This document shows positions 3,661 to 21,742 of a stretch of DNA of 64,000 nt, in pieces. The position numbers and the translations under genes are program-made. Source of the stretch: Candidatus Borrarchaeum weybense (lineage in GTDB: Archaea; Asgardarchaeota; Sifarchaeia; Borrarchaeales; Borrarchaeaceae); the NCBI GenBank assembly GCA_019057385.1, contig JAHQJS010000004.1, positions 186,001 to 250,000 on the forward strand, written 5' to 3'. The notes beneath the pieces are model-generated. The model did not search any database. It was not told where the DNA came from and saw nothing but the letters and a program-made list of their open reading frames with translations. Every line of letters begins with the position of its first letter. The first letter of the stretch is position 1.

Positions 3661-3773
3661 GCCCCGAGTGGGATTTGAACCCACGACCAACAGCTTACGA
3701 GGCTGCCGCTCTACCAACTGAGCTCTCACTTCTCCGATACGCTATACAGAGATACCGAGGCATGTACCGGGGC
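3661..3773 (-). tRNA. tRNA-Thr (CGT anticodon), interrupted by a 41-nt intron at position 9/10
   Basis: The minus strand from 3723 to 3661 gives a D-arm, an anticodon loop CTCGTAA (anticodon CGT, Thr), a T-arm with TTCAAAT, and a 3' acceptor strand TCGGGGC. U73 follows, as in archaeal tRNA-Thr; no CCA is encoded. The bases directly before the D-stem cannot pair with the acceptor. A matching 5' strand GCCCCGG plus TA lies 41 bases further upstream (3773-3765). The gene is therefore read as exon 1 (3773-3765), intron (3764-3724) and exon 2 (3723-3661). A minus-strand T-run at 3654-3645 fits a terminator. Confidence 0.8.
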
Positions 3774-21393: not shown

Positions 21394-21596
21394 TGCCGTA
21401 GAATCCTCGGAACACTAGTAGATCTAAAAGTGCGATTCTTATTGCGAAATTGTGTGGCTGATTTTTTTCAATTGTTGACAAATAGTTGTTAATAACTATC
21501 GTAGTAATCCTTGTTTAATTTTTAAAAAATCCATCTTAAAAATATTCTCAATAAATTATCCGCATACTTTTATATTTCATACCCGAAGGGAAATGG

Positions 21597-21742
21597 TAGC
21601 CCGGCCCAGATTTTCGCTCCTTTATCATGTGGATGTTTCGAACTGGGGTCCAGGGATCCAGAGTCCTTGATTTCCAAGATTTAGTGATGTATGTCTTTGA
21701 AGCATACCCACTGAATCCGCTTGGCCACTACACTACCGGGCT
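21597..21742 (-). tRNA. tRNA-Gln (CTG anticodon) with two introns, in the D-arm and T-loop
   Basis: The minus strand starts AGCCCGG-TA-GTGTAGTGGCC and ends with the matching acceptor CCGGGCT and A73. The loop CTCTGGA gives anticodon CTG (bases 21661-21659). Intron 1 (21718-21672, 47 nt) sits between the two halves of the 3' D-stem (AAGC / ATC). Exon CCAA pairs with intron TTGG, flanked by 3-base bulges GCG and AAA. Intron 2 (21636-21611, 26 nt) interrupts the T-loop between TTCGAA and T. TTCG pairs with CGAA, with bulges AAA and AAT, next to the intact T-stem CCCAG/CTGGG. Both are proper bulge-helix-bulge folds. One A-C mismatch (28/42) remains in the anticodon stem. CCA is not encoded. Confidence 0.9.

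Follow-up and report, generated by a model that had tools for sequence, protein, structure and literature searches.

Asgard archaea are a group related to eukaryotes. In two of their lineages, Atabeyarchaeia and Freyarchaeia, 92-95% of the tRNA genes bear introns, often at non-canonical positions and more than half with several (Nat Commun 2024, PMC11291895). The word endonuclease does not occur in the main text of that report. Multiple introns with bulge-helix-bulge (BHB) motifs are also found in the Thermoproteales, which belong to the Crenarchaeota, where a single tRNA can hold up to three, for example at positions 25/26, 56/57, and 59/60 (Sugahara 2008; reviewed in PMC4090602 and PMC8450103). 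On the enzymatic side, relaxed BHBs are removed efficiently only by endonucleases of the (alpha beta)2 and epsilon2 types, and in the Aeropyrum pernix enzyme this requires a lysine within a loop termed the Crenarchaea-specific loop (CSL; PMC6379350, PMC12397907). Neither of these two papers mentions Asgard archaea.

The tRNA-Gln(CTG) gene of Candidatus Borrarchaeum weybense (Sifarchaeia) described here is like those of Atabeyarchaeia and Freyarchaeia in having multiple, non-canonical introns, while coming from a different Asgard lineage, and like those of the Thermoproteales in having more than one BHB intron, including one at 59/60. Its other intron lies at 23/24, which is not among the Thermoproteales positions given in the review text, whereas 22/23 and 25/26 are. 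In addition to what was reported in PMC11291895, the endonuclease type and its loop were identified, and intron presence was compared within one genus. The endonuclease resembles the (alpha beta)2 enzyme of A. pernix in its Tyr-His-Lys alpha subunit, its Lys-Pro-Lys/Arg loop, and its separate, non-catalytic beta subunit (PMC6379350, PMC12397907); it differs in that the loop is seen across Asgard archaea and not in Crenarchaeota only. Multiple non-canonical tRNA introns are already known in Asgards and Thermoproteales, and tRNA-Gln(CTG) is a clear further example.

Results

Anatomy of the tRNA-Gln(CTG) gene

The window, that is, the whole stretch of 64 000 nucleotides that was analyzed, corresponds to C4:186001-250000 of a 4.18 Mb genome in 8 contigs. 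The genome is in all likelihood metagenome-derived and its estimated contamination is 7%. The tRNA-Gln(CTG) gene occupies 146 nt of the minus strand, from 21742 (5' end) to 21597 (3' end), and is interrupted twice. Its parts are as follows.

21719..21742, minus strand: exon 1, 24 nt, mature nucleotides 1-24 (acceptor 5' strand, D-stem 5' strand, D-loop, G22 and C23)
21672..21718, minus strand: intron 1, 47 nt, in the D-stem 3' strand at 23/24; BHB CCAA-GC^G...TTGG-AA^A
21637..21671, minus strand: exon 2, mature nucleotides 25-59 (A24 and T25, anticodon arm with CTCTGGA, variable loop, T-stem 5' strand, TTCGAA)
21611..21636, minus strand: intron 2, 26 nt, in the T-loop at 59/60; BHB TTCG-AA^A...CGAA-AA^T
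21597..21610, minus strand: exon 3, mature nucleotides 60-73 (T60, T-stem 3' strand, acceptor 3' strand, discriminator A73)
21594..21596, minus strand: encoded CCA end, adjoining exon 3

Both introns have a 4-bp central helix and two 3-nt bulges on opposite strands. In intron 1, the central helix is CCAA/TTGG, the bulges are GC^G and AA^A, and a long inner stem follows; the intron folds with a z of -3.67, and none of 200 shuffles folded as well. In intron 2, the central helix is TTCG/CGAA, the bulges are AA^A and AA^T, and the motif stacks on the 5-bp T-stem. The inner helix of this second BHB is weak in the present genome, consisting of 1 bp followed by a mismatch. The cut site of intron 2 is fixed by the BHB motif, and small shifts (exon ...AA, intron ...AAAA) leave the mature sequence unchanged.

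Removal of both introns gives a predicted mature tRNA of 73 nt with the anticodon CTG, which reads AGCCCGG TA GTGT-AGTGGCCAA-GCAT C AAGGA-CTCTGGA-TCCCT GGAC CCCAG-TTCGAAT-CTGGG CCGGGCT A. This product forms a complete cloverleaf with the conserved features of a tRNA, the sole defect being an A28-C42 mismatch in the anticodon stem. At the same position, the congeners have A-T or G-T.

Detection of the gene

The gene was recovered with our own script, in which all BHB motifs were enumerated, at most two were removed, and what remained was scored as a cloverleaf. The BHB thresholds were loosened once; the stricter version, in which a longer inner helix was required, missed the gene, and the loosened version is the one used in the chance test below. 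The first-pass annotation had placed introns of 47 and 26 bases in the 3' D-stem and the T-loop of this gene, and the top solution of the independent splicing script contained exactly two introns that agreed with it to the base. The helices CCAA/TTGG and TTCG/CGAA and the 3-base bulges that it had described were likewise recovered in the BHB search. The expectation that a simple tRNA finder could miss the gene proved correct, as ARAGORN returned 0 tRNAs in the window and Rfam RF00005 at the gathering score reported only the Thr gene at 3666-3727, without tRNA-Gln(CTG).

Over the whole window and both strands, tRNA-Gln(CTG) scored 21.1, followed by a part-solved tRNA-Thr at ~ 3.7 kb (17.9) and then by a score of 11.0. 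For comparison, six first-order-Markov copies of the window, in which the dinucleotide content is only approximately preserved, were searched on both strands, and the best of the 12 hits scored 11.0. A chance origin of the tRNA-Gln(CTG) solution was rejected on the basis of this difference (21.1 against a maximum of 11.0). Imposing both BHBs on the full precursor cost 3.6 kcal/mol relative to its unconstrained fold. No cloverleaf was seen in the unconstrained fold, and this lack of a cloverleaf is expected for an unspliced precursor.

The second-ranked gene in the window, tRNA-Thr(CGT), lies at 3666-3727 on the minus strand and extends to ~ 3770. Its acceptor stem and D-stem are separated by an insert of ~ 40 nt, for which a BHB search found no motif. 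Together with its insert, this gene looks identical in the congener G003, against 92% identity over the 2.5 kb around it.

Intron presence in relatives

The D-stem intron at 23/24 is present, at 46-47 nt, in all four genomes of the genus that were searched. In G003, the orthologous gene has both introns, again of 47 and 26 nt, while G001 and G002 have the D-stem intron alone (46 nt). The T-loop of the latter two reads as an uninterrupted TTCGAAT, the same as the predicted spliced product of the gene studied here. The exons are near-identical across the genus (exon 1 is the same in all orthologues apart from one difference in G002), and the loop of the D-stem intron is variable. The BHB of the second intron is exact in G003, where its inner helix has four pairs, and one substitution in the present genome weakens this helix. 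The first-pass claim of a tRNA-Gln with two introns outside the anticodon loop is thus borne out by the structure, by the chance test, and by the empty sites in relatives. Judged from four genomes, the difference at 59/60 may represent either a gain in this genome and G003 or a loss in G001 and G002.

Most of the Gln genes read in other Asgard families have no interruption (GCAT) at the 23/24 junction, and an intron at 59/60 was parsed in Gln genes of two genomes and recognized by eye in those of three more. The parser requires T33, so that several Gln genes of one Asgard family (f3) were skipped and then read by eye. In several genomes of this family, the tRNA-Gln(TTG) gene (five loci) has C33, within the loop CCTTGAA, in place of the near-universal U33.

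Other tRNA genes of the genome

A DNA search of the genome with the mature sequence returned tRNA-Gln(CTG) itself and one other tRNA match, a tRNA-Gln(TTG) gene at C5:262439, which also has two introns, but elsewhere (in the D-loop and the variable loop). A further match at C6:786509 was rejected as a false, non-tRNA hit. A separate intact tRNA-Gln(CTG) gene would have spoken against the first-pass annotation; neither pattern searches nor DNA searches of the genome turned up a second or uninterrupted copy, and the only other Gln gene found was the twice-interrupted Gln(TTG). With both of the Gln genes found interrupted twice, decoding of Gln appears to need two splicing events with either tRNA.

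At E <= 0.001, Rfam gave 26 tRNA matches in the genome, many of them on contig C1; few chromosomal tRNA genes were detected in this way, and both Gln genes were missed. Most of the chromosomal tRNA genes that could be parsed contain introns, and at least eight genes have two, in a census that is partial. Several T-arm matches could not be resolved into whole tRNAs. The genes parsed on contigs other than C1 include those listed here; some of the solutions rest on relaxed motifs, so that the precise cut sites are uncertain.

Two introns each: Val CAC, Val GAC, Val TAC, Ala TGC, Ala GGC, Thr GGT, Arg TCG, and both Gln
One intron: Asn, Phe, His, Thr TGT, Arg TCT, Arg CCT, Ser GCT, Cys (C6), Ala CGC, Met
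No intron: Glu; one Cys on C7

Intron positions in these other tRNAs include 9/10, the D-loop, 37/38, 45/46, and 59/60, and T-loop introns at 58/59 or 59/60 are present in seven of them. The T-loop introns of Val CAC, Val GAC, Val TAC, and Thr GGT are alike (z of 5 to 7 against shuffles), and this similarity may reflect copying or spread between tRNA genes. The T-loop intron of Gln(CTG) resembles none of these four.

Contig C1 (179 kb) carries more than 12 compact tRNA genes in which BHB introns are not apparent, and an RtcB gene matched there in two pieces. It could be that this contig is viral or contaminating and not chromosomal.

Splicing endonuclease and ligase

Exactly two tRNA-intron endonuclease genes were identified in the genome. 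The first (C4:663774) encodes an alpha subunit that matches the catalytic EndA subunit of A. pernix (3p1z_B) over its length with an E of 5.6e-42; it has two EndA domains and keeps the Tyr-His-Lys residues. Its loop, GKPVGIRKPKHF, contains a KPK that, in the sequence alignment, is placed opposite K44-P45-R46 of 3p1z_B. The second (C5:195898) encodes a beta subunit without the loop, in which Ala stands in place of the catalytic His in an alignment with 1a79 of M. jannaschii. At the protein level, EndA shares 94% identity with its counterpart in Ca. Borrarchaeum yapensis and 79% with the one in Ca. Sifarchaeum marinoarchaea, which places the genome among the Asgard archaea. A gene for RtcB, the archaeal tRNA ligase family, is located on C5. 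A catalytic alpha and a separate beta subunit are the components of an (alpha beta)2 enzyme, and the two would be predicted to assemble accordingly. The endonuclease type, for which the first-pass annotation had proposed a search of the genome, can be given as a two-gene alpha/beta enzyme with a CSL-type K-P-K loop.

The distribution of the loop was explored in 30 further Asgard EndA loci, which were the best-scoring ones, so that alpha subunits were favored over beta; one locus was left out, and a K-P-[K/R] loop was present in all 29 of the readable alpha subunits. As every Asgard alpha read has the loop, it does not discriminate intron-rich from intron-poor Asgards.

It had been argued earlier that multiple non-canonical introns such as these imply an endonuclease of broad specificity. 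From the two introns of tRNA-Gln(CTG) this does not strictly follow, since neither lacks any part of the 4-bp helix or the 3-nt bulges, and such complete motifs are cut by enzymes of narrow specificity too. The argument can be retained on other evidence, as the relaxed motifs in other tRNAs of the genome, together with the CSL-type K-P-K loop, offer better grounds for expecting a broad-specificity enzyme.

Discussion

The locus is, with high probability, a functional tRNA-Gln(CTG) gene with BHB introns at 23/24 and 59/60 that would be cut out by the alpha/beta endonuclease, with RtcB joining the exons. This account starts from what was observed, namely the gene anatomy, the empty sites, and the endonuclease subunits and RtcB with their conserved residues, and the enzymatic steps are assigned by homology. 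Once transcribed, the precursor would fold with its acceptor stem, anticodon stem, T-stem, and two BHBs. The alpha/beta endonuclease, probably assembled as (alpha beta)2, would then cleave both BHBs after the second of the three nucleotides in each bulge, and ligation of the exons by RtcB would restore the D-stem and the T-loop. Since the D-stem waits on the removal of intron 1 and the T-loop on that of intron 2, both introns would have to be out before the tRNA elbow exists, whichever of the two splicing events may come first. Counted against this explanation are the A28-C42 mismatch, the weak inner helix of intron 2, the gap of 3.6 kcal/mol between the two folds, and the probable metagenomic origin of the genome, with its estimated contamination of 7%.

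Some of these same features could also be read in another way. Archaeal U34 tRNAs are often able to read G-ending codons, so that Gln(TTG) might serve both CAA and CAG while tRNA-Gln(CTG) decays as a pseudogene broken by insertions, an interpretation to which the A28-C42 mismatch and the missing T-loop intron of two congeners would lend themselves. Such decay is nevertheless very unlikely, because the exons otherwise give a full cloverleaf and have stayed near-identical across the genus while the loop of the D-stem intron varies, the central motif of the BHB is exact in each of the two insertions, and interruption is the norm among the tRNAs of this genome. The CAG codon is, moreover, in use, accounting for 134 of 469 Gln codons as counted in long stop-to-stop frames and not in curated genes.

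The weak inner helix of the T-loop BHB might suggest that only one of the insertions is a spliced intron, the second being either an expansion segment that is retained or an artefact of the assembly. This is scarcely credible given that both insertions are found at the same place in the independent genome G003 (~ 90% identical over the 0.9 kb region), that a 26-nt insert retained in the T-loop would destroy the elbow, and that seven other tRNAs of the genome have introns in the T-loop. Archaea are known to have group I introns (PMC6125680), but self-splicing introns of group I or II were rejected here, as a ribozyme would need far more than 26 or 47 nt; with BHB motifs present and no match to the Rfam intron families at the gathering score, the probability of self-splicing is close to nil.

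Beyond the functional, twice-spliced tRNA-Gln(CTG) gene, a wider interpretation can be put forward tentatively, at somewhat less than even chances: that the K-P-[K/R] loop is general in Asgard endonucleases, that introns continue to be gained and spread, that 59/60 is a hot spot for them, and that the T-loop intron described here is a recent gain within the genus. Within that reading, 59/60 would be a hot spot because the invariant TTCRA already gives one half of a BHB. Neither a CSL-type loop across Asgard alpha subunits nor the within-genus difference at 59/60 was found in the open-access literature searched.

Genes of this kind are missed by standard tools, and Asgard genomes look short of tRNAs as a result. 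A T-loop intron that is present or absent in otherwise near-identical genes of one genus provides a clean system for the study of intron gain and loss. Dense non-canonical introns and a CSL-bearing alpha/beta enzyme across Asgards offer a testable link between the enzyme and the spread of introns, near the origin of the eukaryotic TSEN.
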